Assembly: GCA_031285625.1 (NCBI GenBank)
Contig: JAITVV010000067.1
Span: forward strand, 1 to 64,000
Length of the DNA: 64,000 nucleotides
Source of the DNA: Prevotella sp.
GTDB lineage: Bacteria > Bacteroidota > Bacteroidia > Bacteroidales > Dysgonomonadaceae
Reading direction: 5' to 3'
In this document: in pieces, positions 9,783 to 64,000 of the stretch
Position numbering within the stretch: position 1 is the stretch's first letter
How the letters are laid out: each line of letters begins with the position of its first letter
The notes under the pieces: model-generated
What the model saw: only the letters and a program-made list of their open reading frames with translations
Database searches by the model: none
What the model was told of the DNA's origin: nothing
Program-made: the position numbers and the translations under genes

Positions 9783-9800
9783 AAATAAACAGATTCAGAT

Positions 9801-32437: not shown

Positions 32438-32473
32438 TGTGATTGTTTTAAATAATTAATATTAACCTATAAG

Positions 32474-35545: not shown

Positions 35546-35952
35546 AAATTAGTTTTTAAGATTAAAGATTTATGGTAATTGATTGTCTGTCTACAAAATC
35601 TCAATTCAAAGACTATTTCGCTTTTTTATGTGAGTTGTATTCTTATTGCATTAGATATCATAGATGATTCGAATGTAAAATTAGATTTTTGATATTCATA
35701 AAAGATGTAAGTTTCTTTTGAAAAAATGTAAAATATTACTATTTATAATTTTATGCTTTCCAGAGTCTAGCAACCACGAAAGTAGCTTTATTCTTTAAAA
35801 CAAAGACCCTACACTCTCTCAAAAAATAAAATATATGTAGTATATATGTATTATTCGATAGATTTAGGACATTTGTTTTATTTATTGCGACGGTTGTGAT
35901 TTTCATTTTATGTATATTTGTTATCACACTATCTTATTTTATTAAAGCATAT
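35546..35952. promoter_or_regulatory. divergent regulatory region between susC and hybrid two-component regulator
   Basis: About 400 AT-rich bases with no gene. ATGTAA boxes on the plus strand occur at 35673, 35705 and 35726, 32 and 21 bases apart, that is roughly three and two helical turns, as expected for AraC-type half-sites. TATATTTG at 35913-35920 fits the -7 consensus for the regulator gene and lies inside the GTG-extended reading frame, favouring the ATG at 35953 as start. Confidence 0.5.
35670..35712 (-). promoter_or_regulatory. candidate operator-promoter block of susC (shared with MFS operon)
   Basis: On the minus strand: ACTTACAT, 24 bases, then TTTTACATTCG. TACATTCG differs by one base from the -7 consensus TAnnTTTG, with ACTTACAT 32 bases upstream. 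The block at 49826-49868 has the identical 43-base layout. Counted by eye, about 31 of 43 positions agree, including all eight of ACTTACAT. A third box at 35726 extends the array. Transcription would start near 35663, giving a leader of about 117 bases. Confidence 0.5.
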
Positions 35953-48382: not shown

Positions 48383-48421
48383 TATGCTTTTGCTTTTTGA
48401 TTAAATGTTTAACAAAAAATA

Positions 48422-49798
48422 CTATTTAGTGAGCTCTTTTTCTATTTCTTCAAGAGATTTGCCTTTTGTTTCAGGAAGGTTTTTCTTCACGAAAACAAAT
48501 CCTAGCAGACAGATAATTCCATATAGCCAGAATGTGCCATATGCGCCTAATCCGTTATTTAACAGTGGGAATGTATACGTTAATACAAAACATGCTGTCC
48601 ATAAAGAGAATGTGGATACTGCCATCGCCATTCCCCTGATGCGGGTTGGGAATATTTCAGAGATAACCACCCATGTGATAGGCGCTAATGTCATCGCATA
48701 GCATGCAATTGCCAGCATAACTAATACTAGTACAGCCATACCCGATATCTGGAAATAGTAGCATGCACCGAGAATTGCATAAATACATGCCAAGCCAATT
48801 GCGCCAAACAGAAGCAATGATCTGCGTCCCAGTTTGTCAACAGCATACATACCAACAATAGTAAATATTACATTTGTTACCCCTGTTATAACTATATTGA
48901 ACAGAATATCGGAAACACCATAACCTGCTGCAGAGAATATTTCCTGTGCATAATTAAATATTACATTTATTCCGCACCATTGCTGAAATGCTGCTATTAC
49001 TATTCCAATCAGTAATATTTTAGGCATCTTTCCTTTAAATAGGAGCCTGAAGTCTACTTTTTCTGTCACTTCGGATAATGAAGCACGTAAAGCAGCCACC
49101 TCTGACTGAGCATATTCTTTACCCCCTATTTTGGTGAGGATTTTTTCAGATTTATCAAATTTTAATTGTGTACCAAGCCATTTAGGGCTTTCAGGAACAA
49201 TAAATATCATTATAAAAAAGAATACAGCCGGAACACCGCCTGCCCAGAACATCCACCGCCAACCCATCTGGCCGTTCCAAGATTGCAAAATATCTTCGCC
49301 GGGAGCAATAGGGTCTGCAATCATCCAGTTAACCAGTTGTGCAGATAAAATACCGATAACCACTGTCAGCTGATTGAGAGAAACAAATTTACCTCTCACA
49401 TTGGCTGGGGATACTTCGGCTATATACATTGGAGACAGATTTGAAGCAATACCTATGCCAATCCCTCCTAATACCCTATATACTATAAACCATGATAATG
49501 TGTCGCTGATACCTGTGCCTATGGCGGCTACAATAAATACAAGGGACGCTATTATCATTAATGGTTTTCTTCCGTAACGATCTGATAAACTACCGGATAC
49601 CATTACACCTATCAGGCATCCCAGAATAGCGCTACCCATTACCCATCCTTGCATATAGGGTGAGTCTGTAATATCAAAAAAGACTTCGTAGAATGGTTTT
49701 GCCCCGCCAACAACTACCCAATCGTATCCGAACAGTAGTCCTCCCATAGCAGAGACAAATGTAATAAGCAACAAATAAGAGCTATTCCCTTGTTTCAT
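48422..49798 (-). CDS. MFS sugar porter (proton symporter type)
   Basis: A 458-residue inner-membrane transporter with 12 expected helices. Sugar-porter signatures: GGLLFGYDWVVVGGA in helix 1, GSLSDRYGRKPLM after helix 2, YIAEVSPANVRGKFVSLNQ, VPESPKWLG before the central loop and VDKLGRRSLLL after helix 8, and PETKGKSLEEIE at the end. XylE/GalP-type relatives carry xylose, arabinose, galactose or glucose with protons; galactose or a galactoside is the likely cargo here, given GalM and the galactosidases. First gene of the operon, with a promoter-like block 28-70 bases upstream. Confidence 0.92.
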   Translation of the reverse strand: MKQGNSSYLLLITFVSAMGGLLFGYDWVVVGGAKPFYEVFFDITDSPYMQGWVMGSAILGCLIGVMVSGSLSDRYGRKPLMIIASLVFIVAAIGTGISDTLSWFIVYRVLGGIGIGIASNLSPMYIAEVSPANVRGKFVSLNQLTVVIGILSAQLVNWMIADPIAPGEDILQSWNGQMGWRWMFWAGGVPAVFFFIMIFIVPESPKWLGTQLKFDKSEKILTKIGGKEYAQSEVAALRASLSEVTEKVDFRLLFKGKMPKILLIGIVIAAFQQWCGINVIFNYAQEIFSAAGYGVSDILFNIVITGVTNVIFTIVGMYAVDKLGRRSLLLFGAIGLACIYAILGACYYFQISGMAVLVLVMLAIACYAMTLAPITWVVISEIFPTRIRGMAMAVSTFSLWTACFVLTYTFPLLNNGLGAYGTFWLYGIICLLGFVFVKKNLPETKGKSLEEIEKELTK

Positions 49799-49825
49799 CG
49801 TGATATTGATTTAATGTTAGTTTAA

Positions 49826-49868
49826 CAAATGTAAAAGTACTATCTTTATATATACTAAAAATGTAAGT
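49826..49868 (-). promoter_or_regulatory. operator-promoter block of MFS operon, matching that of susC
   Basis: Minus strand: ACTTACAT, 24 bases, TTTTACATTTG. TACATTTG (49826-49833) fits the -7 consensus exactly and would start transcription near 49819, about 20 bases before the ATG. The ACTTACAT box lies 32 bases upstream, exactly as in the susC block at 35670-35712. The same DNA is also the upstream region of the divergent AraC gene, so the boxes could instead serve that regulator. Confidence 0.55.
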
Positions 49869-49881
49869 ATTTTTCAAAAAC

Positions 49882-50841
49882 ATGGAAAATATTATTATTT
49901 TAGCAGATCATTTCCTTAACTATCTAAATGTACCAACCATGGAAAATATTGAAATTGCTGATGGTTTCAAAGGTGAGAAAGCAATCGTTACGCCCTATAA
50001 CACAAGAGAATACCAAGAAACAAATGAGATAACGAGACAGTTATTTGTAACACACATTGGCTATTATCCAGATGCAAAATATCATTTTCGCCAAAGGGTA
50101 TCTGGCGCAAATGAAAATATTCTCATTTATTGTGAAAAAGGGAAAGGTTGGGTAGAATATAAGGATGAAAAATATATACTATCAGAGAATCAGGCTTTTA
50201 TCATCCCAGCAAATGAAGCTCATGTGTATGGCGCAGATATACGTAATCCATGGAGTATATACTGGCTTCATTTTAAAGGCCAGAATACCTATATGTTCAA
50301 TTCCATTATTGGCAAATTATTGTCCATACAAGAATCAGATAACAGCAGATACAGTGACCGGATGGTTTTATTTGAGGATATGTATCAAAATCTCGAAATG
50401 GGATATAATCCTGAAAATCTGGAATATATCAGCTTTTGCCTGATGCATTTTTTAGCATCGCTCAAATATCTGACACAATTCAGGGAAATTAAGAATGTAA
50501 AAGTAGATGATGTGATACAGCAATGTATACACTACATGAAAGATAACCTGGAAAATAAAATAACACTAAAAGATATAGCAGATGCTGTAGGCTATTCAAG
50601 TTCTCATCTGACCACTTTATTTTCCCAAAGGACCTCTTTTTCGCCGATAGTGTATTATAATCAGTTGAAGATACAAAGGGCTTGCTCATTCTTGCAATTC
50701 TCAGACCTAAAAATTAAAGAGATCGCGTTCCGGCTGGGATATTACGACCCGTTTCACTTTTCCAACGCATTTATTAAGGAGATGGGAATCACGCCGAAAG
50801 AGTATCGTAAAAGATATAGGGAAGAATTACTGGAAAAATAG
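49882..50841 (+). CDS. AraC-family transcriptional regulator
   Basis: A 319-residue regulator. The N-terminal half is a cupin-like AraC ligand-binding domain (about 60-160: YHFRQRVSGANENILIYCEK, FIIPANEAHVYGADI, WSIYWLHFKGQNT). The C-terminal half carries two helix-turn-helix motifs (about 215-315: ITLKDIADAVGYSSSHLTTL and IKEIAFRLGYYDPFHFSNAF). It is divergent from the MFS operon with an 83-base gap and probably controls it in response to a monosaccharide. A second in-frame ATG at 49939 (MENIEIADGF) repeats the first residues MENI and is a possible alternative start. A terminator follows at 50860-50902. Confidence 0.9.
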   Translation: MENIIILADHFLNYLNVPTMENIEIADGFKGEKAIVTPYNTREYQETNEITRQLFVTHIGYYPDAKYHFRQRVSGANENILIYCEKGKGWVEYKDEKYILSENQAFIIPANEAHVYGADIRNPWSIYWLHFKGQNTYMFNSIIGKLLSIQESDNSRYSDRMVLFEDMYQNLEMGYNPENLEYISFCLMHFLASLKYLTQFREIKNVKVDDVIQQCIHYMKDNLENKITLKDIADAVGYSSSHLTTLFSQRTSFSPIVYYNQLKIQRACSFLQFSDLKIKEIAFRLGYYDPFHFSNAFIKEMGITPKEYRKRYREELLEK

Positions 50842-50859
50842 ATTAGTCACTTTTACAAA

Positions 50860-50902
50860 AAACAAAAGCCATATAAGTTTCGTTATATGGCTTTCGTTTT
50901 TT
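50860..50902. terminator. bidirectional terminator between AraC gene and biosynthetic operon
   Basis: AAAGCCATATAA (50865-50876), loop GTTTCG, TTATATGGCTTT (50883-50894), with an A-rich left flank and CGTTTTTT on the right. It can end both the AraC transcript and the minus-strand biosynthetic operon, whose last stop codon is at 50908. Confidence 0.88.
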
Positions 50903-50907
50903 AGTTT

Positions 50908-51783
50908 TTAATATCTGCCGATACCCTCTTCTTTAGGGTATTTATAGAATCCTTCTCCCGAAAGATAGCCGAGTTTGCCCTTTTTCAGGAAATTCTCTTT
51001 TATGTATTGCGCAAATAATCTATCTTTCAGTTCTCCATTAACAGCGATATTATATATTGTATTGAGTCCCACAATATCATACATTTCGAATGGTCCGACA
51101 GGTGATCCGGTGGCAATACGCCATGTTTTATCTATAGTTTCCACATCACTGACTCCTTTCAGATAAAGTTCAGACGCCGCGCCCATAAAAGGCATCAGCA
51201 GTGAATTCAGTATATATCCACGTTGTTCTTTTTTTACTATAATGGGTACCATACCTATTGCCTCGGCAAATTCTACCACAGTATCGAAAGATTCAACATC
51301 CGTCTTGGTGGATTTCATTATCTCGGCAATATTACAATGGAACAGTAGATTGGAGAAATGTAATGATAAGAATTTATGCGGGCGTCCTGTATACTCCATC
51401 AGATGACTTGGCAGCATGGTAGACGAATTTGTCGTGAAAATTGTTTTTTCAGGAGCAACCCTGCCCAGCTCGGTATATAGTTGCTGCTTTGTTGCCGGAT
51501 CTTCGGGTACTGCTTCGATAGTTAGGTCAGCATTCCTTACAGCTTCCGAAAGATTGAAGGAATAAGATATATTATTGAAAGCATTTTCTATATCCTCTTC
51601 AGCTGCATTTGCTTCCCTCAGATATATTGTTTTCAGTAAATCCAGATGCTCGATAACTTTACTGTACATATCTGCACTTATATCGTATATAATTACGTTG
51701 AAACCTTTATAGGCTATCTGAAAAGCGATTTGGGAACCCATATTACCACCGCCTAATACGGTTACATTGGAGATTTTTTCCAT
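50908..51783 (-). CDS. 3-hydroxyacyl-CoA dehydrogenase family protein
   Basis: A 291-residue SCHAD-type enzyme. N-terminal Rossmann domain with VTVLGGGNMGSQIAFQIA; FTTNSSTMLPSHL is the serine-containing active-site strand; LHFSNLLFHCNIAEIM holds the likely catalytic His in the usual HF-N-P region (here N-L instead of N-P). A C-terminal helical dimer domain follows (ILNSLLMPFMGAASELYLKG, GPFEMYDIVGLNTIYNI). Family reaction: NAD-dependent oxidation of 3-hydroxyacyl-CoA or reverse reduction. Last gene of the operon, 9 bases after the membrane protein. It may trim or reduce the acyl product or supply a starter. Confidence 0.9.
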   Translation of the reverse strand: MEKISNVTVLGGGNMGSQIAFQIAYKGFNVIIYDISADMYSKVIEHLDLLKTIYLREANAAEEDIENAFNNISYSFNLSEAVRNADLTIEAVPEDPATKQQLYTELGRVAPEKTIFTTNSSTMLPSHLMEYTGRPHKFLSLHFSNLLFHCNIAEIMKSTKTDVESFDTVVEFAEAIGMVPIIVKKEQRGYILNSLLMPFMGAASELYLKGVSDVETIDKTWRIATGSPVGPFEMYDIVGLNTIYNIAVNGELKDRLFAQYIKENFLKKGKLGYLSGEGFYKYPKEEGIGRY

Positions 51784-51792
51784 GGTGTATGT

Positions 51793-53400
51793 TTATTTAT
51801 TTAGTTTGTATAAGTGATGTATTTCTATACTTTTTTCGTCTATTGTATTTATAATGGTATCGGAAAGTATCAGTGTATAATTTTCTTTAAAAGCGGGAAG
51901 ACTCAGAAAATAATCCTGATTACCTATTTTACGCCTTTTCTGTACTTTGGTACTTCCGTCAAAATTGAGTAAGGATTGAGGAATAAGAACAAACTTAACT
52001 TCCTTATTCTCTATATATTTTGTCTGTTCATCACGCATTTCCGGATATGACTCATAAGTAAGATTAGGAGAAACAAAATAGCGCACATTGGGTACAATAC
52101 GGCATGTGGTAAATAAACTGTTTCCGAGTCCAAAACCGATATTGAGTAATGTAGGGTTCTCTTCTTTCATAATTTCATCATGCAATTTCTGAGTGAGTAA
52201 ACCTGGCTCCAGTTCAACTGCAGTACTAGCAATTCTATTATTCCCCAAATCACTTTGACTATAACCCAGATATACAATTGCAGTAGTTAATATTATGAGA
52301 TAGACAGGCGAAACCTGACCTTCCACTTTCACACATTTGGATATATATACGAATAGACTGAGAAGCCCTAAGCCGCTAAAAACAAGAAAAACAACAGGGT
52401 AATACATCTGAAAAACCGGGAACATGAATATAATAATATATAAGGATACCCCAGATAGCAACAATGCCCATTTACCCAAAGTATGTCCAATATGTTTTAG
52501 AGGGAACCAGAAAACTCCAATCAACGTCATAAAAAACAATGAGAATGGATCGAGAAACAGATATACGACACGGAGAAGTATCAGTTGAATAGTACTTGTG
52601 ATGGATTGCAATTCGGCATATTTGCGATTTAGTTCTATATAGACGGAATATCCTTCCTGAAGAGCATCATTTACATACAAGTATATAAGGATAGGTACTG
52701 CAATAACTAAAATTCCGCCAATATATGTAAGCGCATTTATTGCAAAATTCTTAAATTCCTTCTTTAGCAATAGATTCAAAAATATTGCAGCTAAAGGGAA
52801 AAACCAGAAAACGATTAAATTCAGTTTTATAAAAAGTACCATGGAACAAAAAAGACCATGTATAAACATTACAGATGGTTTATGGTAAGACGCATCCTTT
52901 TCTTTAAAATACCTGACAAAGTAAAAGAGGCTGATGCACTCGAAAACAAGGATAAATTCCTCTGCCGAACCTCCCGCTTTCATCATCTTAATAATAAAGA
53001 CAGGAAATATAACAGCGACTATATATGCAAATACCCTATCGAGATATAGTTTAGACAGCTTGTATATAAAGTAAACCATGACAAACCAGGCAGTCCATTG
53101 AATAAGGAACATTCCAAAGAATGAATTATTCGATATAAGATAACCAAAACCGTATATAAAAAAGATAAGTGGTCCTTTGTGATCAAATACCTCTGTATAA
53201 AGGGCTTTCCCATTAAAAATGCCCTTTGCTACATTAAAATAAATATTCACATCGGCCCACTCATTTGAATAGTATAATGGGGACATATGCGAACATATAA
53301 CTAATAGAAAAAAAAGATAAAAACCCAAGAGAGCAAGTATCTTCTTTTCGCTCAGCGTATTAAAAAATTCTTTATTCAACATATAAGTTTTTCTGATCAA
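51793..53400 (-). CDS. GT-C-type (GT39/ArnT-like) membrane glycosyltransferase
   Basis: A 535-residue integral membrane protein with about 10 to 12 hydrophobic helices followed by a soluble C-terminal ~130 residues. NVAKGIFNGKALYTEVFDHK followed by GPLIFFIYGFG resembles the first periplasmic loop of GT-C enzymes, with the acidic and D-x-K-x-P motif used by ArnT/PMT relatives to bind a polyprenyl-phosphate sugar. It would add a sugar on the periplasmic face. It sits between a GT1 gene (9 bases upstream) and the dehydrogenase (9 bases downstream), so a role in finishing or exporting the glycosylated product is likely. Family call by pattern only. Confidence 0.65.
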   Translation of the reverse strand: MIRKTYMLNKEFFNTLSEKKILALLGFYLFFLLVICSHMSPLYYSNEWADVNIYFNVAKGIFNGKALYTEVFDHKGPLIFFIYGFGYLISNNSFFGMFLIQWTAWFVMVYFIYKLSKLYLDRVFAYIVAVIFPVFIIKMMKAGGSAEEFILVFECISLFYFVRYFKEKDASYHKPSVMFIHGLFCSMVLFIKLNLIVFWFFPLAAIFLNLLLKKEFKNFAINALTYIGGILVIAVPILIYLYVNDALQEGYSVYIELNRKYAELQSITSTIQLILLRVVYLFLDPFSLFFMTLIGVFWFPLKHIGHTLGKWALLLSGVSLYIIIFMFPVFQMYYPVVFLVFSGLGLLSLFVYISKCVKVEGQVSPVYLIILTTAIVYLGYSQSDLGNNRIASTAVELEPGLLTQKLHDEIMKEENPTLLNIGFGLGNSLFTTCRIVPNVRYFVSPNLTYESYPEMRDEQTKYIENKEVKFVLIPQSLLNFDGSTKVQKRRKIGNQDYFLSLPAFKENYTLILSDTIINTIDEKSIEIHHLYKLNK

Positions 53401-53409
53401 ATTGTTTTC

Positions 53410-54594
53410 TTAAAGAGCAATCCCTTCCAGCAATTCGGCTGCTTTTCTATTACCTCCTGCTTCGATGAAAGATTGCTGTATTTCTCCGGCCGCCTTTTTA
53501 TATGCGGGATTATATAATAATTCATCTACGGCATGCTCAATATCCTTCACGCGCATACGACTATATTTGATACGAATACCACATCCATAGTTTTGAATTA
53601 ATTGTGCTGTATGTGACTGGTCGAATGCCATTGGAATTATCAGCATGGGTATACCATTCATAAAGGTGTCACAAGTTGTATTTAATCCTCCATGTCCGAT
53701 TACAACATCAATATGTTTTAATAGCTCGGATTGAGGTACATAACCTTGTACAATAAAGTTATCCGGCCATTCTTCCAAGATATTAGGGTCAGCGGCAGCA
53801 ACGACTGTTACAGGTTTATCTTTCAAAGCCTCGATCATACGGCTGAAAAATTCTTTCCGACTGTGAACCAACACTGTACCTATTGATATATATATTTTAG
53901 GTCGATCACCCATTGATTTGAGCCTTTCCCAGTCAAAAGGCGTATTATCGGGCCTTCCTGTCAAAGCCCCTATGAATTTCATATATGGAGGAACAGAAGC
54001 ATCATCGAAACCGCAAAACAATTGAGAAGTATAATACATATTCAATTGTTTAGACAATACAAATTCCTCATCCCCCTCAATACCAGCCAATCGTTGCAAC
54101 TCTATAATAGATTTATGTACCCATTCTGTAACTTTAGGTGCACTTTGCGGATCATTTAGTGCATTAGGCGTAATTGGCGTTATGGTTGCAAAAGGAATAT
54201 TTTTTAACCGAGCCGCTAATCCTCCGACAAAAGTGATGCAGTCATTTACTATTACATCAGGTTTATACCTATCCACAATCTCATTAAACTCATCTATCAT
54301 CATTTTGGCAAAAGGAATATAAGTATCCTCCAAGCCTAACTTGAGAGCTTCCAGAGCCGGCATATTTGCACCTTTATTCTGTAATAAGATTATACGTTCT
54401 ATCTCTTCCTTATTTTTACTTTCAGTCTCCTCCATATAAAAATACTTTGCCCCATCCGGAAATAATTCCATATTGAGCTGAGTCATACCTGCCCAGGCAA
54501 CATCATGACCTCTTTCTAAAAGAGTGCGGCCTACGCTTAAGGTTGGATTTATATGCCCCCAGAATGGAGGAACTACAAATAAAAATTTTGCCAT
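53410..54594 (-). CDS. GT1 (MGT-type) glycosyltransferase B
   Basis: A 394-residue GT-B fold enzyme. N-terminal acceptor domain opens with FLFVVPPFWGHINPTLSVGR. The C-terminal donor domain has IYISIGTVLVHS, VVAAADPNILEEWPDNFIVQ, GYVPQSEL and VIGHGGLNTTCDTFMNGIPM with MAFDQSHTAQLI, the nucleotide-sugar-binding signature of macrolide/UDP-glycosyltransferases. It is a paralogue of the gene just upstream (54624-55811). Such enzymes glycosylate hydroxyls of lipids, polyketides, carotenoids and macrolides in the cytoplasm. Two tandem copies suggest two successive sugars or two acceptor sites. Confidence 0.92.
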   Translation of the reverse strand: MAKFLFVVPPFWGHINPTLSVGRTLLERGHDVAWAGMTQLNMELFPDGAKYFYMEETESKNKEEIERIILLQNKGANMPALEALKLGLEDTYIPFAKMMIDEFNEIVDRYKPDVIVNDCITFVGGLAARLKNIPFATITPITPNALNDPQSAPKVTEWVHKSIIELQRLAGIEGDEEFVLSKQLNMYYTSQLFCGFDDASVPPYMKFIGALTGRPDNTPFDWERLKSMGDRPKIYISIGTVLVHSRKEFFSRMIEALKDKPVTVVAAADPNILEEWPDNFIVQGYVPQSELLKHIDVVIGHGGLNTTCDTFMNGIPMLIIPMAFDQSHTAQLIQNYGCGIRIKYSRMRVKDIEHAVDELLYNPAYKKAAGEIQQSFIEAGGNRKAAELLEGIAL

Positions 54595-54623
54595 CGGATT
54601 ATCTTTTAAGGTTATAAACCTAC

Positions 54624-55811
54624 TTATTTTACTAGTATGTTTTCCAATAATTCTACAGCTTTGGCAACACCTCCAGCCTCCTCAAAAGATTTCTGTACGG
54701 TTTTTGCGTTTTCTGTATATTTACTGTCATTAAGGACTTCGTTTACAGCATCCTGTAAATGTTGAGCCTTAAATCTGTTAAAGTTTAATCTTATGCCTGA
54801 ACCACTACTAACAACTGTGCCTGCAACATATGACTGGTCGTAAGCAATAGGTAAAACGACCAATGGTTTAGCAAATGATAATGTTTCACAGACTGTATTA
54901 TGTCCTCCATGACATACAACTGCATCCATATGAGGGATAAGTTTAAGTTGAGGAATACGTTTACAAACGATAAAATTATCTGGTATGTACTCAAATAATT
55001 CAGGATCGGAAACAATTACTACACCTATCTTTTCATTCTCAAAGGCCTCTGTCACTTTTTTAAGGAATTGTTGCTTTACACTATGGTCAAAGGTTGTACC
55101 TATAGTAACAAGTATTCTGGAGCGATCATTCATTGATTGAAATGTTTTCCAATCAAAATCATCTGGAAAGTCTCCCCTGTTAATTACCGGCCCTATAAAT
55201 TTATAATGATCCGGTAATTCAGCCTCTCCAAATAGTTTTTTAGATGTATATACAATCGTAAGCAATGAAGAACAGTCTAAACGCTTATCATCATCAACAC
55301 CTACACTCTTTTGAAATTTTATAATCTGCTCTCCTTCCCATACATGAACCATAGGTAAAGTATCATTTACCTTGATAGCCGCAGGGGCTGTAACCGATGT
55401 CACATAAGGGATTCCTTTCTGTATTGCAGCTACCGGTGCTGCAAAGATCTGATGATCGTTAATAATAATATCCGGTTTGTACGAATCTATAAGTTTCTTT
55501 ATACCATCCAGCATTCCGGCATTCATCGGGACCAGTACCTCGTCATACAAAAATTTTAAACTATCGAGACCGTAAACAGTTTTTTTACCAAGTTCCAGCA
55601 TTTCTGTCTTTATCCTCTCCTTATCTTCCTCGCTTATATCAGCTTCCAATAAGAGAAAAGTGCCTCCATCAGGTATTCTTTTCTCTAATTGGGGATCAAA
55701 ACTAATCCATGCAACTTCATGCCCTTTATTAAGCAATTCGGTTCCGAGGCCTAAGGTAGGATTAACATGCCCTGTAAGAGGTGGAACTATAAATAAAAAT
55801 CTGCTTTTCAT
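54624..55811 (-). CDS. GT1 (MGT-type) glycosyltransferase A
   Basis: A 395-residue enzyme with the same fold: FLFIVPPLTGHVNPTLGLGT at the start, ILVTIGTTFDHS, IPDNFIVCKRIPQLKLI and VVCHGGHNTVCETLSFAKPL with IAYDQSYVAG at the donor site. Its start overlaps the hydrolase stop by four bases (ATGA), and the next glycosyltransferase begins 29 bases after its stop. The pair clearly arose by duplication but has diverged (for example the DDASVPPYMKFIGAL versus EAELPDHYKFIGPV region). Expected to transfer a sugar from a UDP- or dTDP-donor to the polyketide/acyl product. Confidence 0.92.
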   Translation of the reverse strand: MKSRFLFIVPPLTGHVNPTLGLGTELLNKGHEVAWISFDPQLEKRIPDGGTFLLLEADISEEDKERIKTEMLELGKKTVYGLDSLKFLYDEVLVPMNAGMLDGIKKLIDSYKPDIIINDHQIFAAPVAAIQKGIPYVTSVTAPAAIKVNDTLPMVHVWEGEQIIKFQKSVGVDDDKRLDCSSLLTIVYTSKKLFGEAELPDHYKFIGPVINRGDFPDDFDWKTFQSMNDRSRILVTIGTTFDHSVKQQFLKKVTEAFENEKIGVVIVSDPELFEYIPDNFIVCKRIPQLKLIPHMDAVVCHGGHNTVCETLSFAKPLVVLPIAYDQSYVAGTVVSSGSGIRLNFNRFKAQHLQDAVNEVLNDSKYTENAKTVQKSFEEAGGVAKAVELLENILVK

Positions 55812-56569
55812 CTCATAAATTCTAAAAGTTTGTCACTAACCCATTGTGGTTTCTGAACAGGTAGATTGTGATCACCTTGTCCTTTCAACAGATACGAATC
55901 CGGAATAATATTTTTCAGGAAATCTCCTGCAAACGAGCAATCTGACTCAGAGCCATATAATAACAGAGTAGGCACTTTGATAGGATTGTTGGACATAATG
56001 TCAAACAAATCGTTGTCCATATCAAAATCCTCCTTTATGGAGGTATGATTGAACAAGTACTCATAAAGTTTCTTATTCTTTTCTATTTGTCTTTTACTCG
56101 GCTGCAAAGATGTTGATTCGGCATAGTTATTCAGATATTGATCAAGAAATTCATTACCGTACTTTTGAAGTATCTCCGGAGCATCTCCTTCATCCGGCTT
56201 AGGAGACTCTATTACAGTAAGTTTCTCTATTCTTTTAGGATGAAGCATTGCAGTTTTCAGAGCAATGAGCCCACCATAACTATACCCTACTAAATGTACC
56301 TTCGTCAGATCCAGTTCATTCAGCAGAGCAACCAAGTCTTCTGACATAGCCTCAAGATTATAGCCATTATCAATTCGTTCACTCATGCCATGACTTTGCA
56401 GATCATACAAAACAACATGAAAATATTTGGCCAGTTCCGGAGCTATATTAAAGTAGAATACAGACATATTGGTAAACATACCATGAATCATCACAATAGT
56501 CTGTGATGCTTCACGGTTCATTTCCAATACATGTATTTTCTTATTGTTTACCTGAATGATCGCCATCAA
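55808..56569 (-). CDS. alpha/beta hydrolase, probable thioesterase/product release
   Basis: A 253-residue alpha/beta-hydrolase. VMIHGMFTNM is the oxyanion-hole strand, LVGYSYGGLIAL the nucleophile elbow (Ser), YGSESDCSF carries the acid Asp and GQGDHNLPVQ the catalytic His. No signal peptide. It begins inside the ACP gene, overlapping its last 29 bases in another frame, and overlaps the next gene by four. In this position between the ACP and the glycosyltransferases it most likely releases the finished chain from an ACP, as type II or stand-alone thioesterases do. Confidence 0.85.
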   Translation of the reverse strand: MMAIIQVNNKKIHVLEMNREASQTIVMIHGMFTNMSVFYFNIAPELAKYFHVVLYDLQSHGMSERIDNGYNLEAMSEDLVALLNELDLTKVHLVGYSYGGLIALKTAMLHPKRIEKLTVIESPKPDEGDAPEILQKYGNEFLDQYLNNYAESTSLQPSKRQIEKNKKLYEYLFNHTSIKEDFDMDNDLFDIMSNNPIKVPTLLLYGSESDCSFAGDFLKNIIPDSYLLKGQGDHNLPVQKPQWVSDKLLEFMR

Positions 56570-56849
56570 CTATAAAGTTTACGATATCACCAATATTTAA
56601 TTTTACAATTTGGTCGAGATCCATGGCAGACAGCCATTTTGCGAAATCTATACCATCTCCATACTTTACTCTTACCTTTTCAGCAAAAGCGACCAGCTCA
56701 ATACTGTCCATTTCCAGATCTTTTGTAAAGTTGCTGTCTTGTGTTATATCAAGCTCTTCAGCTATATCTGCACCAATTATATCTGAAATAAATTGTTTTA
56801 ATACTTCAAATACCTGGTCTTTTTCGCCCTTTACCATTACTGTGTCCAT
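56541..56849 (-). CDS. discrete acyl carrier protein
   Basis: A 102-residue ACP. LEMDSIELVAFAEKV contains the phosphopantetheine-attachment serine in the D-S-I motif, with helices before (VFEVLKQFISDIIG) and after (LDQIVKLNIGDIVNFIV). Slightly longer than the 75-80-residue standard because of an insertion around GDGIDFAKWLSAMD. It differs clearly from the three tandem ACPs encoded upstream, so it probably serves another step (starter loading or transfer to the hydrolase/glycosyltransferases). It overlaps the synthase gene by 13 bases and the hydrolase gene by 29. Confidence 0.88.
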   Translation of the reverse strand: MDTVMVKGEKDQVFEVLKQFISDIIGADIAEELDITQDSNFTKDLEMDSIELVAFAEKVRVKYGDGIDFAKWLSAMDLDQIVKLNIGDIVNFIVDGDHSGKQ

Positions 56850-59800
56850 CCTATTATAAAGTTTTTATGTTTTAGTGTTTTCACTTCACAATCTTCTATG
56901 ATCAAAGTCTCTCCTTCGATTCTCTTCACTTCATATCGCTTAGGGTTTCCTTGAAGTCCAAATCCTAACATTTTACCATATGATTCTTTAGCCACCCAAA
57001 AACGAGTACTCCATTCGGCAATATCTTTGTCCTTAAGCAAATCTAGTTCGTGAGGAGTAAATGATATATCCAGAAAGTCTTTAGTACGTTCCTCTATTGT
57101 TTCAATATCAATACCTACTGGCTTGTCTGAAACTATACTTACGCTGGTAGATCCTTTATGTGCCAATGAAATTTCCATACCCTCTATTTCATCTATACCG
57201 TATACGTAAGGTTTACCATTGTCATCATATTTAATGAAATATTCGATAGGATATGTCACTTTATCTTTCTTATCCTGGACGTATGATCTTAAGCTATCTT
57301 TCAAAGCTATTCTACTGGCAAGGTAGTCTTTACGCTTATTGAGCGGGATGGTAGCATATCTTTTCTTTTCAGGCTGATTCAGATATCTTTTTCTTAAGAA
57401 TTCCAAGACAGCAGTCTTCTTATATTCACCCTCAAAGAAGAATACCCCGGGCACAATTTGTTCTGCCATCAGATTTCTTCCCGGATTCAGGGTAATTGTC
57501 CATAATCTTTGATCAAATTCGAAACGCCTGTTCTGCCATCCTTTGGCAACACTCCATAGTTTTCCGTCCCGTTTCAAAATCATTTCACATGTTGTAAAGT
57601 CTTTATCTATAGTTTTGCTCAGACAGATACATTCAAACAGCCCTTCCTGATCATGCATATCCTGATAAAATGTAATATCCTGAACCTTTACAGGGAAAGT
57701 TACATTATTTATTTTCAAAATCAAATGTAAATAAAGCCCATATGTCTGTCCCATATTATCTAATAAAGAACCTTTACCTTCCTGTTTCCGTATATAGGCT
57801 CTTATACCTTTTTCGGTTACATGCGTAACTTTTTCTATACCTTGATATTCAACTCCGTGAAACATATAATTTTCATATATATCCTCGGGAGTAGGTAAAT
57901 AGCTTATATTTTCACCCAAATCAATATAATTTTCGTAATATGGATCCGGAGTAGGCAGAGTATCTTTTAGAACAACCTCACCCGAGGCAAAATTCTTAAT
58001 ACCCAGAGAAATGAGTTCTTCAGATTTCCATACACCATTTATTTTCTGGATGAACGGGGTATGGACTTCCATCCATTGAAATACACTTATAGGGCCTATA
58101 CTTACTATTTTTTTAGATAAATCCTGCTTATGTGCAGCTTCTGCCAATAGCTCGAAAGTCATAGTCATAGGAATTACCGGATTTAAATCCTCCGGACAAT
58201 CCCAGTACGATGGTTGTTTCACTAATGAGTGTCCCATCAGTGTAGGGTATGTCTCTAATGAAACATATAGATCTTCAACAAAAGATGTCCCTGTTTTAGC
58301 CTGAGTTTTTACAACTACAGGTTCTACTTTCTCAATTACAGGCTGTATTGTATTTATCACCTGAGGCTGAGGCTGAGGTTGTGGTGCAGTTACAGGTAAT
58401 GATTTTACCACAGGTACATTTCCATTCGATTCTCCCCTTTCTTTAAATAATCTGGCCAGCTCCATTTGCATCTGGGCCATTTCTTTCATGTTTTCATTCA
58501 AGGCAGCCATTACCGGATGCGATGTATCTACTGCCAATGAACCGAAATCAACATTAGAAGTAGCTTTCGCACGTTCTTTTACATGTTGGCTTAGAATAGG
58601 GAATTCTGTCTGAACATCCATAAACATCTGCAACCTCATCCCTTTGCCGGATTTCTTTTTATTCGCCTTTTCTACATTAAGAAAAGACATGTCCACATCG
58701 CGGCCTTCGATATAAAGCAGAGCCATTACACGCCTTAATTGTTCCAATGTAGTTCTTTGACTACTAGTTTCAGATATAGCACTGTATGGCTTATTAGTAA
58801 ATATATCGTCTACAAATCCGACAAGACTTCCCCCTCCTACTTGAATAAATACACGTGCGTTCTCTTCCTCATAAAGCTTTTCAACTAACTCCCGGAATCT
58901 TACACCTTCAAGAAGATGCTTCACAGATAGGGCCTTAATATCCTGAGCTTCGGTTGGATAAGGCTCCAATGTATTGGTAGACCACATAGTTACTTCAGGG
59001 TCATTAAACTCAAGATGCTGAAATGAGTCTTCCAAAAGATCAAGCCTGTGTTTTATGAAAGGAGTATGGAATCCCGATTGATACGGTAAAACCTGAAAGA
59101 AAATCTGCTCCTGTTTAAGCCCTTCTGACAACTTCTTTACAGCATCTTCCGTACCACAAAGTAATACCTGATTTGGACAGTTATCATTAGATAAGTAAAG
59201 ATCGGGAATTGTATCCAGATACTTTTTCACTCTTTCTCTACCTATACTTACAGCGATGAAGAAAACCCCATCAATCTTGTACTGGCTTGCATCCAGACAA
59301 TTGATAAGTTTTCTGATCGACTTAGCGGATACCATACCTGATGCTTCCACCCCGAACCATTCTCCGAGGCTGTGTCCGGCATTCATATCTGATTTTAAGT
59401 TCAGCGCCTTCAGCGACATATCCATCGCCCTATTTATCCGATATAGCCTTAGTACATTATCTACCATTTCACTCTCACTCGATCTGTATTCCTCTTCAGG
59501 CAGATTAAGTTTGAAATGATTGAGCAAGCTATCTATTTCAGGATTTACAGACGGATCATATCCTGGGTATAAAAAGGCTATTTTCCCTCCGTTTTTGATA
59601 AGTGGTTTGTTAGTATACCAAATATCTTGACGACCTTTCCATACCAAATCTTTCTCTATAAATTTTATTGCTTTTTCTATCCTGTCTGGTGTCGGATTAA
59701 AGACCACCAAGCGGTAATCTCCATCCTGATTTGCAGATGATGTTTCTCCATTACGAAGGCTTTTTATCAATGCCTCTTTAGTCGGTGCTGTTAAAGCAAC

Positions 59801-61231
59801 CACTTTATCCGGGAATGGGCTTCTATCTGCAGTCAGAGATTGCTTCTCTCCATATGCCTCTAATATGACATGTGCATTAATACCGCCAAAACCAAATGCA
59901 TTCACACCCGCAATAAGAGGATATTTGTTTTCATCCCATTCCTGCAACTGTTGTACAGGTTTGAAACGTGTTTTTTCCATTCCTTTAAGGGGGCGTTCAC
60001 AATGTAGTGTCGGCGGAATTTGTCTCGTATACAAAGCTAGAACTGCTTTTATCAAACCAAGAATACCAGCCGCAGGCATTGCATGACCAACATTGGATTT
60101 TACAGAACCTAACAGAACTTCTTTATCACACTCTTCTTTTGGAAAAACCTCTGACAAAGTTTGTAATTCTGTTCTGTCTCCTACAACTGTTGCGGTTCCA
60201 TGCGCTTCCAAGTAACCAATCTTAGCTTTGTCCATCCCAGAATCTGTCCAGGCTGTCTCTATAGCAAGTTTCTGACCTTTAACAGCAGGAGCCATAACAG
60301 CTACACCCGATCCGTCACTACTTACCCCTATACCTCTGATTACGGCGTAGATACGGTCATTATCTGCAACAGCTTTATCCAGAGTTTTCAGGACAACAAA
60401 ACCTCCCCCTTCACCAATCAATAGTCCATCTGCATCTTCACTGAATGGTGTTATACTTTGCTTATGAGATAAAGCACCCAGTTGTGCAAAAATACTCCAG
60501 AACGGAGTATTGTGACCGGCATGTACACCTCCTGCAACAGCAATATCACATCTCCCGCTTTCCAATTCTTTTACACAATGTTCCAAAGCGATCAAAGAAC
60601 TGGCACAGGCAGCATCAATTACATATGAAGGTCCCTGCATGTCCAGTTTGTTGGATATAAGGGAAGCAATCAAATTTGGTATAAGTCCAGGCATAGAGTC
60701 GGCCTGATAGCGGCCCCGGGATGCCTGATATTGTTCTTTAATTTTATCTATTTCTTCGTCAGATAGATCCGGTAATGCTTTCTTTACCACTTCGGCCATC
60801 TGATGACTTACATGAACTATATCCATAGCCCGCCATACAGCAGATCCCACATACGCCCCTTTACCAATTACCAAGGCACACTTTTTCAATGATATCTTCT
60901 TGTCAAATACCGATGCATCTTCCAATGCCTGATAAACACTTTTCAGTGTTAACATGTGGGACGTATCCATTCCTTGTACCGCAAGCGGCAGAATAGAAAA
61001 CTCCATAGGATCAAATAATATATCCGGAATAAAACCTCCCCGCTTACAATAGAAACGATCTACAGCCGGCTTTCTTGTTTCATCAAAATATCGGGGATCT
61101 AACCTATCGGCCGGGGCATCCTTAATACAGTCTACCCCATTGATAAGATTATTCCAATATTCAATGTAATTACTTGCTTCAGGAGCGAAGCAAGACATTC
61201 CTACAATTGCTATATCTTTTTTATTTTCCAC
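56837..61231 (-). CDS. KS-AT-DH-phosphopantetheinyl transferase megasynthase
   Basis: 1,464 residues, GTG start at 61231 seven bases after the upstream stop. Ketosynthase about 1-460: IDAACASS (Cys209), EAHGTATVVGD (His344), SNVGHAMPAAG (His383). Acyltransferase about 545-845: GHSLGEW (Ser621), FHTPF (His722). A Pro/Gln linker follows (about 938-980, PQPQPQPQ). Dehydratase of double-hotdog type about 985-1240: GHSL (His1001) and LLDNMGQ (Asp1158, Gln1162). Sfp-type phosphopantetheinyl transferase about 1290-1464: GIDIE (Asp1375, Glu1377) and WVAKESYGK (Trp1412 to Lys1420). The order recalls enediyne PKSE and PUFA synthases, with ACP and KR moved to the upstream protein. It elongates, dehydrates and self-activates the ACPs of the system. 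Confidence 0.9.
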   Translation of the reverse strand: MENKKDIAIVGMSCFAPEASNYIEYWNNLINGVDCIKDAPADRLDPRYFDETRKPAVDRFYCKRGGFIPDILFDPMEFSILPLAVQGMDTSHMLTLKSVYQALEDASVFDKKISLKKCALVIGKGAYVGSAVWRAMDIVHVSHQMAEVVKKALPDLSDEEIDKIKEQYQASRGRYQADSMPGLIPNLIASLISNKLDMQGPSYVIDAACASSLIALEHCVKELESGRCDIAVAGGVHAGHNTPFWSIFAQLGALSHKQSITPFSEDADGLLIGEGGGFVVLKTLDKAVADNDRIYAVIRGIGVSSDGSGVAVMAPAVKGQKLAIETAWTDSGMDKAKIGYLEAHGTATVVGDRTELQTLSEVFPKEECDKEVLLGSVKSNVGHAMPAAGILGLIKAVLALYTRQIPPTLHCERPLKGMEKTRFKPVQQLQEWDENKYPLIAGVNAFGFGGINAHVILEAYGEKQSLTADRSPFPDKVVALTAPTKEALIKSLRNGETSSANQDGDYRLVVFNPTPDRIEKAIKFIEKDLVWKGRQDIWYTNKPLIKNGGKIAFLYPGYDPSVNPEIDSLLNHFKLNLPEEEYRSSESEMVDNVLRLYRINRAMDMSLKALNLKSDMNAGHSLGEWFGVEASGMVSAKSIRKLINCLDASQYKIDGVFFIAVSIGRERVKKYLDTIPDLYLSNDNCPNQVLLCGTEDAVKKLSEGLKQEQIFFQVLPYQSGFHTPFIKHRLDLLEDSFQHLEFNDPEVTMWSTNTLEPYPTEAQDIKALSVKHLLEGVRFRELVEKLYEEENARVFIQVGGGSLVGFVDDIFTNKPYSAISETSSQRTTLEQLRRVMALLYIEGRDVDMSFLNVEKANKKKSGKGMRLQMFMDVQTEFPILSQHVKERAKATSNVDFGSLAVDTSHPVMAALNENMKEMAQMQMELARLFKERGESNGNVPVVKSLPVTAPQPQPQPQVINTIQPVIEKVEPVVVKTQAKTGTSFVEDLYVSLETYPTLMGHSLVKQPSYWDCPEDLNPVIPMTMTFELLAEAAHKQDLSKKIVSIGPISVFQWMEVHTPFIQKINGVWKSEELISLGIKNFASGEVVLKDTLPTPDPYYENYIDLGENISYLPTPEDIYENYMFHGVEYQGIEKVTHVTEKGIRAYIRKQEGKGSLLDNMGQTYGLYLHLILKINNVTFPVKVQDITFYQDMHDQEGLFECICLSKTIDKDFTTCEMILKRDGKLWSVAKGWQNRRFEFDQRLWTITLNPGRNLMAEQIVPGVFFFEGEYKKTAVLEFLRKRYLNQPEKKRYATIPLNKRKDYLASRIALKDSLRSYVQDKKDKVTYPIEYFIKYDDNGKPYVYGIDEIEGMEISLAHKGSTSVSIVSDKPVGIDIETIEERTKDFLDISFTPHELDLLKDKDIAEWSTRFWVAKESYGKMLGFGLQGNPKRYEVKRIEGETLIIEDCEVKTLKHKNFIIGWTQ

Positions 61232-61238
61232 TTTCGAA

Positions 61239-64000
61239 TCAAATATTTAAAAAGCCTTTTACATCTTCTGCACCACCCATTACCAATACATGGTTCTCTT
61301 TACCATATTTGAGCTCATTTACAAAATACTCTGCTCCTTCTTTTAATGGGATCAGTGATACTCCACGTTTTTTAAATTCAGCCTCCAGCGTATCGCTAAC
61401 CATACCAGTTCCTTTCCACGGTCCCCAGTTGATGGTCAATATTCTGGCATCCATCTTTTCATTTAAGGCTGATGCGATATGATCAAATACACTGTTAGCA
61501 GAAGCATAATCCGATTGTCCTTTGTTACCATAAGATGAGGCTACACTACTGAACATCACAAATAGTTTAAGATCGGGATGTAGTTCATCCAGTAAGACAT
61601 GCAACGGAGTTACTTTTGTAGAATATACTTGTTCGAAAGAATCGAATGTTTTATGTATAAACAACTTATCGTCCAACAAACCAGCTGCATGGAAGATTCC
61701 GTCTATTCTGCCATAGGTTTCATATGTTTTCTTGATAAAGTCTCTTAATGCTTGTTCATTCTTTATATCTAAAGAAACATAAGTTACTTTTCCACCCGTC
61801 TTTTCTATTTTCGCAACATTCTCATTTATCTGATTAGCTTTGAATATCTTCTGAACTTTTTTCTCTATCTCACCAGGAGATCTCATATTCTCTTCACTGA
61901 TCAGGTATTTACGTATTTTATCTTTAGAATCCAGCGATTTATATTTATCGAATTCAGGAGTCGGTGCTTCAGATCGTCCAACCAGTATGTAATTACATGG
62001 ATATTCTTTAGACAATTCACTTACCAACTCAGGAGTAATTCCCTGAGCACCACCAAATACAACAACTACAGAATCTTTGTCCAAGGCCAAATGAGAACCT
62101 CCATTTGGAGTAAGTTCTACAGGTTTAGGATTTGTGAAATATCTTTTCTCATCCTTATATATTATTTCAATATAGGTAGCATCACGTGTGAGTAACTCGT
62201 CCACTACAATTTGAGCTAAAGATGCTTTATCGAAGACAGAATGCGATACAACAGCACGGAAGTTTATAGCAGGAAATTCATGAGCAAGGCTCTTTATCAA
62301 ACCTGGGAAACCTTGTATCTCTTTCATTTTAGATATACCTTCTGTAGCCTTAATATTTCCAAGTATATCGCTGAATGTATATACCCACTTGATCTTGGCA
62401 AGATCTACATTCTTTATCATATTAAATACTTCCTTGATGCTGTATTTACGAGGGGATGCTGATGAGTTAAGGATCACCAACCCGTCATATTGAGTAAGGT
62501 CTTCATCTCCCTTAATAAGGTCAACAGTAGCTCCATTCAGTTCCATTACTGCCTTAACACTTTCAGCATATTCACCGCCATCATCTGTTAATGCAAAATG
62601 CTTACCATCGATTAGTATTTTTTCTGAATTCAGTATTTTTTCTTCCAGTTCGAAACTCATCCTTATTAAATCGTCTGCTATAGTCTTGCTTGTTGTAACT
62701 GCAGCTTGTTGAGGCTGAGATTGGGACGGTAATTGAGCAGGAGTTTCTTCACTCTTGCTACCATTCGCCAATTCTTCGATCCAGTCTATTAGTCCGTTAA
62801 GTGTTTTTACAGAAGCTAGTTTCTCAATTGTATCTTCTGCATCTTCAATGCTTCCGGATATATTCAATTTATCCCTCAATGATCCTATTATCTCCATACG
62901 TTTAATAGAATCGATACTTAAATCGGCTTCAAGATCGAGATCTAATCCTAGCATATCGGTAGGATAACCTGTTTTCTCACTTACTGTTTCCAGAAGCAAT
63001 GCTTTAATATCTTCCATGGATACTGCTGCAGGAGCAGTAGCTACTACTGGTTGAGTTGCTACTGGCATGCTTTGTGCACTTTGCATTACCGGAGTTGTAC
63101 CCTGCTGTTGAACTGGGGCAGAAGCTTGTTCCTGACCGGCTTTAGCTAAGTCTTCGATCCATTCTATCAGTCCGTTAAGTGTTTTTACAGAAGCTAGTTT
63201 CTCAATTGTATCTTCTGCATCTTCCATACTTCCCGATATATTCAGTTTTTCCCTTAATGCACCGATAACCTCCATACGTTTAATAGAATCGATACTTAAA
63301 TCAGCTTCAAGGTCTAGTTCTAGACCTAACATCTCGATAGGATAACCTGTTTTTTCGCTGACTGTTTCCAGTAATAATGTTTTTATATCTTCCATGGATA
63401 CAGCTGCAGGAGCAGGAGTTGATGCAATCGGTGCTGCTACAGGCTGAACTGCAACCGGCATATTCACTTGCATTACCGAACCTGCGCTTTGCATTTGAGG
63501 CTGAGCCTGACTCATACTTGATTTTGCAAGATCCTCAATCCATTCGATCAGCCCGTTAAGTGTTTTTACGGAAGCCAGTTTTTCGATTGTATCTTCTGCA
63601 TCTTCCATACTTCCCGATATATTCAATTTTTCCCTCAACGCACCGATAACCTCCATACGTTTGATAGAATCGATACTTAGATCGGCTTCAAGGTCAAGTT
63701 CAAGACCTAACATATCGATAGGATAACCTGTTTTTTCGCTTACTGTTTCCAGTAATAATGCTTTTATATCTTCAATAGACACGGCAGAAGTAGCTGAAGC
63801 AACTGGTTGAAGTGCAGCTACAGGCATAACCACAGGTTGCGGTTGTGACTGTTGTACCTGTGGAGCAGGAGCTACAGGCAATACTTGTTGCACTGGGATC
63901 GTTTGTATTGGTGCCGAAATATTATTAGCAGGAGTATGACCTAAGTAACCAAGCATTACATCACGCTGGCTCTGAAGCATCATTCTCATGCTATTCAGAT
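61239..64000 (-). CDS. PfaA-like ACP-ACP-ACP-KR synthase subunit (5' end outside window)
   Basis: The frame stays open to the right edge (codons before the first ATG at 63989 read LNS), so the protein begins outside. The entry text MLQSQRDVMLGYLG resembles the segment before the ACPs in PfaA-type PUFA synthases, so a KS-AT part probably precedes. Numbered from that ATG: three near-identical ACPs (71-155, 198-283, 324-408), each with DLSIDSIKRME (Ser108, Ser235, Ser361), joined by Pro/Ala/Gln-rich linkers. Then a ketoreductase with a structural half (about 435-620) and catalytic half (about 638-860): VVVFGGAQGIT, FHAAG, MFSSVASSYGNKGQSDYAS (Ser, Tyr) and ANSVFD. It reduces 3-ketoacyl-ACP intermediates made by the ketosynthases. 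Confidence 0.9.
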   Translation of the reverse strand, partial: LNSMRMMLQSQRDVMLGYLGHTPANNISAPIQTIPVQQVLPVAPAPQVQQSQPQPVVMPVAALQPVASATSAVSIEDIKALLLETVSEKTGYPIDMLGLELDLEADLSIDSIKRMEVIGALREKLNISGSMEDAEDTIEKLASVKTLNGLIEWIEDLAKSSMSQAQPQMQSAGSVMQVNMPVAVQPVAAPIASTPAPAAVSMEDIKTLLLETVSEKTGYPIEMLGLELDLEADLSIDSIKRMEVIGALREKLNISGSMEDAEDTIEKLASVKTLNGLIEWIEDLAKAGQEQASAPVQQQGTTPVMQSAQSMPVATQPVVATAPAAVSMEDIKALLLETVSEKTGYPTDMLGLDLDLEADLSIDSIKRMEIIGSLRDKLNISGSIEDAEDTIEKLASVKTLNGLIDWIEELANGSKSEETPAQLPSQSQPQQAAVTTSKTIADDLIRMSFELEEKILNSEKILIDGKHFALTDDGGEYAESVKAVMELNGATVDLIKGDEDLTQYDGLVILNSSASPRKYSIKEVFNMIKNVDLAKIKWVYTFSDILGNIKATEGISKMKEIQGFPGLIKSLAHEFPAINFRAVVSHSVFDKASLAQIVVDELLTRDATYIEIIYKDEKRYFTNPKPVELTPNGGSHLALDKDSVVVVFGGAQGITPELVSELSKEYPCNYILVGRSEAPTPEFDKYKSLDSKDKIRKYLISEENMRSPGEIEKKVQKIFKANQINENVAKIEKTGGKVTYVSLDIKNEQALRDFIKKTYETYGRIDGIFHAAGLLDDKLFIHKTFDSFEQVYSTKVTPLHVLLDELHPDLKLFVMFSSVASSYGNKGQSDYASANSVFDHIASALNEKMDARILTINWGPWKGTGMVSDTLEAEFKKRGVSLIPLKEGAEYFVNELKYGKENHVLVMGGAEDVKGFLNI
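62766..63779 (-). repeat. three tandem ACP-coding repeats
   Basis: Units at about 63525-63779, 63141-63398 and 62766-63020, with a period of about 380 bases. Protein units are nearly identical (for example ETVSEKTGYP, LDLEADLSIDSIKR, AEDTIEKLASVKTLNGLI in each). Parts are almost identical in DNA too: GTCCGTTAAGTGTTTTTACA and neighbours recur with few changes. Units 1 and 2 are closer to each other than to unit 3. Such repeats can expand or contract by recombination. Confidence 0.9.

Follow-up and report, generated by a model that had tools for sequence, protein, structure and literature searches.

Which product is made by an operon in which a large, two-protein megasynthase stands next to a pair of glycosyltransferases (GTs) in a Bacteroidota genome? 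The operon in question lies at the end of the stretch of DNA analysed here (the window), which comprises the first 64,000 bases of the 103,496-base contig JAITVV010000067.1 of a draft genome whose genus was taken as Dysgonomonas; the contig was read beyond the window end. The cassette is real, conserved and, as far as was searched, uncharacterised. It encodes a synthase of the secondary lipid kind, with which a GT pair is co-inherited, together with finishing enzymes that depend on the lineage. The loci themselves show its gene content, domains and motifs and the co-inheritance. The operon probably encodes the pathway of a 'secondary lipid', a diglycosylated lipid with a long chain. In this reading it is neither an enediyne polyketide synthase (PKSE) nor a canonical polyunsaturated fatty acid (PUFA) synthase, and a polyene is an improbable product.

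A synthase inherited together with a glycosyltransferase pair

The operon consists of eight tightly spaced open reading frames (ORFs), all on the minus strand. These genes had been described in the same way in a first-pass annotation of the window; the ORF coordinates in the window and the extended contig bear this out, and scans with Pfam and NCBIfam confirmed most of the operon domains. The first gene, PKS1, crosses the window end, and its part within the window (61239..64000) had been given a queried ketosynthase (KS)-acyltransferase (AT) portion. Extension of the contig placed the gene start at 68768 (61239-68768 of the contig, C69) and yielded a protein of 2509 aa with an NMO/FabK-like enoyl reductase (ER) region, KS, AT, three acyl carrier protein (ACP) domains and a ketoreductase (KR), as judged from the ORF, Pfam, the NCBIfam model TIGR02813 and a seven-row alignment (A2); the KS-AT portion was thereby verified and the ER added. 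After a gap of 7 bases follows PKS2 (56837..61231, 1464 aa), with KS, AT, a predicted dehydratase (DH) and a phosphopantetheinyl transferase (PPTase). Its end overlaps by 13 bases the gene of a free-standing ACP (56541..56849, 102 aa; PF00550, 22.6 bits against a cut-off of 20.8), which in turn overlaps by 29 bases the gene of an alpha/beta hydrolase of 253 aa (55808..56569; PF00561, GxSxG motif), possibly a releasing thioesterase or esterase. The GTa gene (54624..55811) overlaps the hydrolase gene by 4 bases and is separated by 29 bases from the GTb gene (53410..54594); both products were assigned by Pfam, NCBIfam and alignment to the MGT/YjiC group of GT1 glycosyltransferases. The last two genes, each preceded by a gap of 9 bases, encode a GT-C-like polytopic membrane protein (51793..53400) and a 3-hydroxyacyl-CoA dehydrogenase (50908..51783; NF006143, 379.8 bits against a cut-off of 312).

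The distribution of the cassette was determined with the PKS2 protein or profile in genome sets that overlap and were searched at different E limits. In the window's own genus a full PKS2 was present in 3 of 25 genomes, namely the window genome, Dysgonomonas mossii and G020, while all other matches were short stretches in frames of about 420-440 aa that were read as FabF. PKS2 was found in 5 of 101 genomes of the family (E <= 1e-120) and in 3 of 393 genomes of an order sample, and each of these counts includes one variant without AT (G035 and G291, respectively). A phylum sample gave 4 of 395 genomes at E <= 1e-150, the own genome counted, and a sample of the genus of G730 gave 2 of 199. In the genus of G697, which is probably Chryseobacterium to judge by its size and by the mention of C. 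gleum in a 2011 survey of such synthases, PKS2 was matched at E <= 1e-200 by 106 of 173 genomes; four of these hold nothing but broken or partial copies. A contig-level profile search returned seven loci in Dysgonomonas, Pedobacter and Mucilaginibacter.

Altogether 31 Bacteroidota loci were read to the position of the GT genes: the three Dysgonomonas loci, five from Mucilaginibacter and Pedobacter (L026, L027, L028, L029 and L031), those of G750, G697 and G730, and 20 further loci, 19 from the genus of G697 and one (G1093) from the genus of G730. This count excludes the AT-less variants and the locus of Dysgonomonas sp. UBA10850 (L030), which ends inside the hydrolase gene. The order PKS1-PKS2-ACP-hydrolase-GTa-GTb was present in all 31 loci. 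The two GTs are encoded by separate genes in eight of them and by one gene for a fused protein of about 800 aa in the other 23; GTa corresponds to the N-terminal half of the fused GT of G730 (53% identity) and GTb to its C-terminal half (52%). Because this arrangement is met again in further families and in a second phylum, coincidence can be set aside. D. mossii DSM 22836 carries the cassette in record NZ_GL892011.1. In the metagenome-assembled genome of UBA10850 (L030:2-11244), PKS1 and PKS2 are each split into two overlapping ORFs, which indicates frameshifts in either the genome or its assembly.

The first-pass annotation had proposed a glycolipid and had named conservation of the GTs with the synthase as a test. 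The test did not contradict the proposal: in the genus of G697 the fused GT was detected at E <= 1e-60 in exactly the 106 genomes with a PKS2 match, where it lies 1053-1073 bases downstream of PKS2 on the same strand, and in none of the 67 others. Synthase and GT pair are strictly co-inherited in this genus, and the glycolipid part of the earlier interpretation is supported. Three genomes (G923, G999 and G1035) have both synthase and GT damaged; in G891 PKS2 is intact and the GT halves lie in separate ORFs, and the G974 match holds one stop. Since co-inheritance across 173 genomes of one genus ties this type of synthase to a fixed glycosylation step, the structure of the product can be sought in culturable strains, and the fused GT pair offers a direct way to test whether a lipid made by a synthase is glycosylated in sequence.

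The synthase and the nature of its chain

PKS1 scored 1077.4 bits with TIGR02813 (omega_3_PfaA; cut-off 1010.1), and its tandem ACPs carry the DSIKR motif. Both features favour another explanation of the operon, in which the GTs decorate a polyunsaturated or polyene chain made by the synthase, so that the product is a true PUFA or a glycosylated polyene. The remaining domains argue otherwise. The ER region was kept in all seven aligned PKS1 proteins; its Pfam match is NMO, its NCBIfam match to FabK lies far below the cut-off, and no PfaD model was among its NCBIfam matches, the content of the library for such a model being unchecked. Only a single, PKS-like DH region is present, and the FabA family (PF07977) was matched neither by PKS1 or PKS2 nor, at E up to 1, by any of the 11 rows of an alignment of the DH-PPTase region (A3); the sole PF07977 match of the genome lies outside the operon on another contig (C16). 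Furthermore, PKS2 has one KS (KS2) with an intact catalytic Cys, followed by an AT-like domain and not by a chain-length factor, as judged from Pfam, alignment and a KS tree. Type A PUFA synthases combine a PKS-type DH on PfaA with a dual FabA-like DH on PfaC (PMC4882568), so that it is the absent FabA-like DH, and not the PKS-type DH, that counts against a PUFA synthase. The ER region and the lack of FabA-family domains thus speak against a polyene or true PUFA, which the earlier interpretation had included, and favour a mostly saturated chain; a polyunsaturated or polyene product is considered unlikely.

In PKS2, the KS, AT and PPTase of the previously proposed KS-AT-DH-PPTase order were found by Pfam, and alignment A1 revealed that the KS retains its Cys, His and His residues and the AT the serine of its GHSLG motif. 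The DH looks PKS-type, judged from relatives: PS-DH matches at E up to 1 were obtained for 6 of the 11 A3 rows (best 1.7e-5), the window row not among these, the Streptomyces PKS2 ortholog exceeded the Pfam cut-off for PS-DH, and one His and a DxxxQ motif of the DH region are invariant in A3. The number of ACP motifs in PKS1, counted by pattern, is three in the window strain, two in D. mossii and in all 28 Bacteroidota loci outside Dysgonomonas, and one in the split UBA10850 frame and in both Streptomyces proteins; G020, whose gene was scanned in part, was left out.

Several known systems offer themselves for comparison. The cassette is like the PUFA synthase PfaA-E in that PKS1 passes TIGR02813 and has tandem ACPs and a KR. 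It differs in the N-terminal FabK/NMO-like ER fused to PKS1, the PPTase fused to PKS2 and the conserved GTs, and it has neither a FabA-like DH nor a chain-length factor; a canonical PUFA synthase was therefore rejected on architecture. Enediyne PKSEs hold KS-AT-ACP-KR-DH-PPTase in one polypeptide. The first-pass annotation had drawn this comparison, which does not apply, because the domains of the cassette are spread over two proteins with two KS-AT pairs and an added ER. Flexirubin and aryl polyene clusters use discrete FabF-like KS and chain-length factor enzymes, whereas the KS domains of the cassette are part of type I proteins and are set apart from the FabF of the same genome in the KS tree, a tree that contains no flexirubin or aryl polyene KS.

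With a PfaA-like protein that contains KS, ACP and KR, the cassette belongs to the secondary lipid (Pfa-like) synthases, in which the ACPs are usually in tandem. Shulse and Allen sorted these in 2011 into 20 types (A-T), among them Type N from Chitinophaga pinensis and Chryseobacterium gleum, given there without a product, and Type M from Actinobacteria (PMC3098273). The cassette likewise shows a PfaA-like megasynthase, tandem ACPs, an associated PPTase and a patchy distribution. Its PPTase is Sfp-like, with the hShxH motif (P1b') in all 11 A3 rows and the hRxhLS motif (P0) in none, as the survey states for Type N among others, P1b' being the form of the PPTase group of Types M-T; the P1a site has the x(G/D)xP of the survey in eight rows and departs from it in three Pedobacter rows, which read xRKP with R instead (PMC3098273). 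The synthase is possibly identical to one of the surveyed types, which were listed without glycosyltransferases: the GTs are conserved in the cassette, whereas the main text of the survey holds no word beginning with 'glycosyl'. The claim in the first-pass annotation that no such Bacteroidota pathway had been described holds, as far as was searched, for the pathway and its product, and only in part for the synthase, since its class was surveyed in 2011. According to a 2026 survey of hybrid clusters, which contains no word beginning with 'bacteroid', the secondary lipids identified so far number no more than a handful (PMC13291983). The same survey describes a cluster of Ottowia thiooxydans with a PfaD-PfaA fusion, a PfaBC without KS-chain-length factor and a glycosyltransferase, joined to PKS-nonribosomal peptide synthetase genes, and parts of the cassette architecture are thus already in print.

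The KS tree was calculated with FastTree from 36 domains and midpoint-rooted, and it includes few references, none of which is an experimentally verified PfaA, HglE or PKSE. The KS domain of PKS1 (KS1) groups with its Streptomyces counterparts with a support of 0.98, as does KS2 with a support of 0.99, and both clades stand apart from modular PKS, FabF and a Persicobacter pair of KS and Cys-less KS. Nearest to the wider KS1 group is the Persicobacter PfaA-like KS, with support not above 0.8; the Persicobacter locus is unannotated and was called pfa-like from its KS arrangement alone. Two Streptomyces plasmids preserve the order of PKS1, PKS2, ACP and hydrolase, with a single GT after these and then a methyltransferase. 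Identities amount to 40.7% for PKS1 over residues 5-1744 and to 32.7% and 32.3% for PKS2 over 98% of its length. The one Streptomyces GT compared is nearer to GTa (34% identity) than to GTb (28-29%), which would fit an origin of GTb by duplication.

These plasmids also bear on a special case of the proposed diglycosylated lipid, a glucolipid that is macrocyclic or dimeric in the manner of the fattiviracins, cycloviracins and glucolypsins of actinobacteria. In such a product the released hydroxy acid is glycosylated, and its carboxyl group forms an ester with a hydroxyl on the sugar of another unit. The same core order with one GT and a methyltransferase in Streptomyces would be in line with such a product, as would the glucosylated trihydroxy acids of fattiviracins and cycloviracins and the methoxylated non-cyclic sugars of cycloviracin (PMC4365757). 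However, no gene-cluster paper for fattiviracin, cycloviracin or glucolypsin was found in the literature searched, the link is by analogy only, and this special case is given a low probability.

More distant relatives are represented by the AT-less variants G035 (L034:1465-18801) and G291 (L036:4146-18513), which encode a KS-DH-PPTase protein, an extra upstream KS-AT protein and a PKS1-like protein in whose KS no catalytic Cys motif could be recognised. In G035 the synthase genes are followed by thioesterase, MacB/FtsX and outer-membrane efflux genes. Plasmid clusters of Beijerinckia indica (pBIND02, L055) and Methylosinus sp. C49 (pMSC49a, L106) comprise a PKS1-like protein, KAS III-like genes, an ABC exporter and a DH-PPTase protein related to the C-terminus of PKS2, and a glycosyltransferase is encoded nearby.

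Finishing enzymes and the proposed pathway

GTa and GTb both exceeded the PF00201 cut-off, and the GH and HGG motifs of GT1 enzymes are invariant in 14 aligned rows. The genes that follow the GT pair depend on the lineage. Among the 31 loci read, a GT-C-like and a dehydrogenase gene are present at the operon end only in the three Dysgonomonas loci. The GT-C-like label of the first-pass annotation was retained; it rests on a PMT_2 match slightly under the Pfam cut-off (25.5 bits against 26.1), eight transmembrane segments predicted by hydropathy and one paralog of the same genome (G000 contig C6) that sits among the surface-glycan genes GT2, DegT and WbqC. Orthologs with 77-79% identity adjoin the cassette in the other two cassette-bearing genomes of the genus; some GT-C match was obtained in 23 of the 25 genomes, the remaining ones being mostly 31-49% identical. 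The position of the paralog suggests that the GT-C of the cassette was recruited from surface-glycan synthesis. Close orthologs of the dehydrogenase (78-79%) were found within the genus only in the other two cassette genomes, all other matches being 23-25% identical. A MATE transporter gene, identified by ORF and Pfam 155 bases upstream of PKS1 on the same strand in the window strain, is also common to D. mossii and G020.

All 28 Bacteroidota loci outside Dysgonomonas run on into genes for PapA-like acyltransferases. There are two such genes in 24 loci (the contig of G750 ends inside the second) and three in L026, L092, L098 and L103, which have an extra tandem PapA1-like gene. The Condensation family was matched above its cut-off by all three PapA-like proteins scanned and PapA_C by one of them, while the score with the PapA5 model (33.9 bits) was far below the cut-off of 396. 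An HHxxxDG motif is present in all three PapA1 proteins compared, and PHxxxDG or AHxxxDG in all three PapA2 proteins. The acyltransferase genes are followed in 27 of the 28 loci, all but G750, by a gene for a small protein of 161-230 aa related to its P. foliorum counterpart, with three transmembrane segments predicted by hydropathy in both proteins checked; the genes beyond vary among the loci. Mycobacterial phenolic glycolipids (PGL), sulfolipid-1 (SL-1) and polyacyltrehaloses (PAT) arise from an iterative synthase that works with GT1s, with acyltransferases of the PapA kind and with a small membrane protein. The cassette resembles this gene set; it differs in that its synthase is of the PfaA family and that no AMP-binding match of the fatty acyl-AMP ligase (FAAL) kind was obtained among the operon proteins. 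The working principle of synthase plus glycosyltransferase is also that of the heterocyst glycolipid (Hgl) islands, which are PUFA-synthase-related and include the glycosyltransferase hglT for the last step (PMC11804610). Compared by description, the gene set of the cassette differs from these islands, with two GT1s and, in most loci, PapA-like enzymes.

In the proposed pathway, PKS1 and PKS2 would form one iterative reducing synthase that is activated by its own PPTase and builds, presumably from malonyl units, a long acyl chain on which one or more hydroxyl groups are retained. The chain would grow on the tandem ACPs, could be passed on to the free ACP and may be released by the hydrolase. 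On the cytoplasmic side, GTa would then attach a first sugar and GTb a second. In Dysgonomonas, the GT-C-like enzyme may add a further sugar after the lipid has crossed the membrane, perhaps by means of the upstream MATE protein, while in the other lineages the PapA-like enzymes would acylate the glycolipid. The order of the steps, the length and structure of the chain, the hydroxyl positions, the identity of the sugars, the membrane side and a role in the envelope are what we infer from this gene content. A wider and more tentative suggestion is that an uncharacterised class of acyl-diglycoside lipids, made by the ER-KS-AT-ACP-KR and KS-AT-DH-PPTase pair with an obligate GT pair, might form a common part of the envelope in a large Bacteroidota genus and might have moved between Actinomycetota and Bacteroidota as one cassette, with the outer decoration (acylation or extra sugar) swapped by lineage.

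Alternatively, the operon could make not an envelope lipid but a specialised metabolite, such as an antibiotic or a signal, whose glycosylation serves its export or the protection of the producer. The GTs match the curated macrolide glycosyltransferase subfamily TIGR01426 (MGT, cut-off 260), with scores below the cut-off for the single GTs (192.3 and 197.1) and above it for the fused GT (378.9, two copies summed), and the MATE gene upstream of the three Dysgonomonas cassettes would also suit export. Against this, the cassette occurs in 106 of the 173 genomes of a single genus, the 20 of them that were read share the same gene set, and the PapA-like acyltransferases suggest a lipid ester. On balance a specialised metabolite seems less likely than an envelope lipid.

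Several observations weigh against the diglycosylated lipid proposed here. As macrolide GTs are the nearest curated subfamily, the acceptor of the sugars need not be the chain itself. The DH region of the window PKS2 had no Pfam match even at E up to 1. The free ACP carries the D/E-S-I motif and the hydrolase the Ser of GxSxG and a His in all six proteins compared, and the expected acid site of the hydrolase is Asp in four of the six, including the window protein; it is Asn in one Pedobacter and one Mucilaginibacter protein, which makes the releasing role unsure. In G967 the GT is intact although PKS2 is broken. Finally, no relative of GTa or GTb was seen near the AT-less synthases of G035 and G291, the latter read to the contig end with its extra genes outside the Pfam scan, so that GTs do not accompany every member of the wider synthase family. 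The literature searched, from which subscription journals and preprints were mostly absent, yielded no paper on the pathway. Nearest to it comes one Chryseobacterium genome, for which an unassigned antiSMASH region of the type 'hglE-KS, T1PKS, terpene' and three glycolipids among the polar lipids were reported, without a link between the two (PMC10459008).

Genomic surroundings

The base composition holds no signal of recent transfer, as the G+C content of the four 4-kb bins from 48001 to 64000 (0.363-0.398) lies within that of the rest of the window (0.345-0.410). Promoter and terminator scans returned fewer matches than shuffled sequences and were not used. Polysaccharide-utilisation genes lie elsewhere in the window (6513-45041). 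Among them are two GH36 alpha-galactosidases (24385-26589 and 42870-45041) and a hybrid two-component regulator (35896-39921), besides two pairs of the SusC/SusD type (6513-11474 and 30869-35545). Outside the window, the same contig carries two copies of the Bacteroidetes small RNA family FopS (RF04319) on the minus strand (L005:14314-14386 and 14585-14657).

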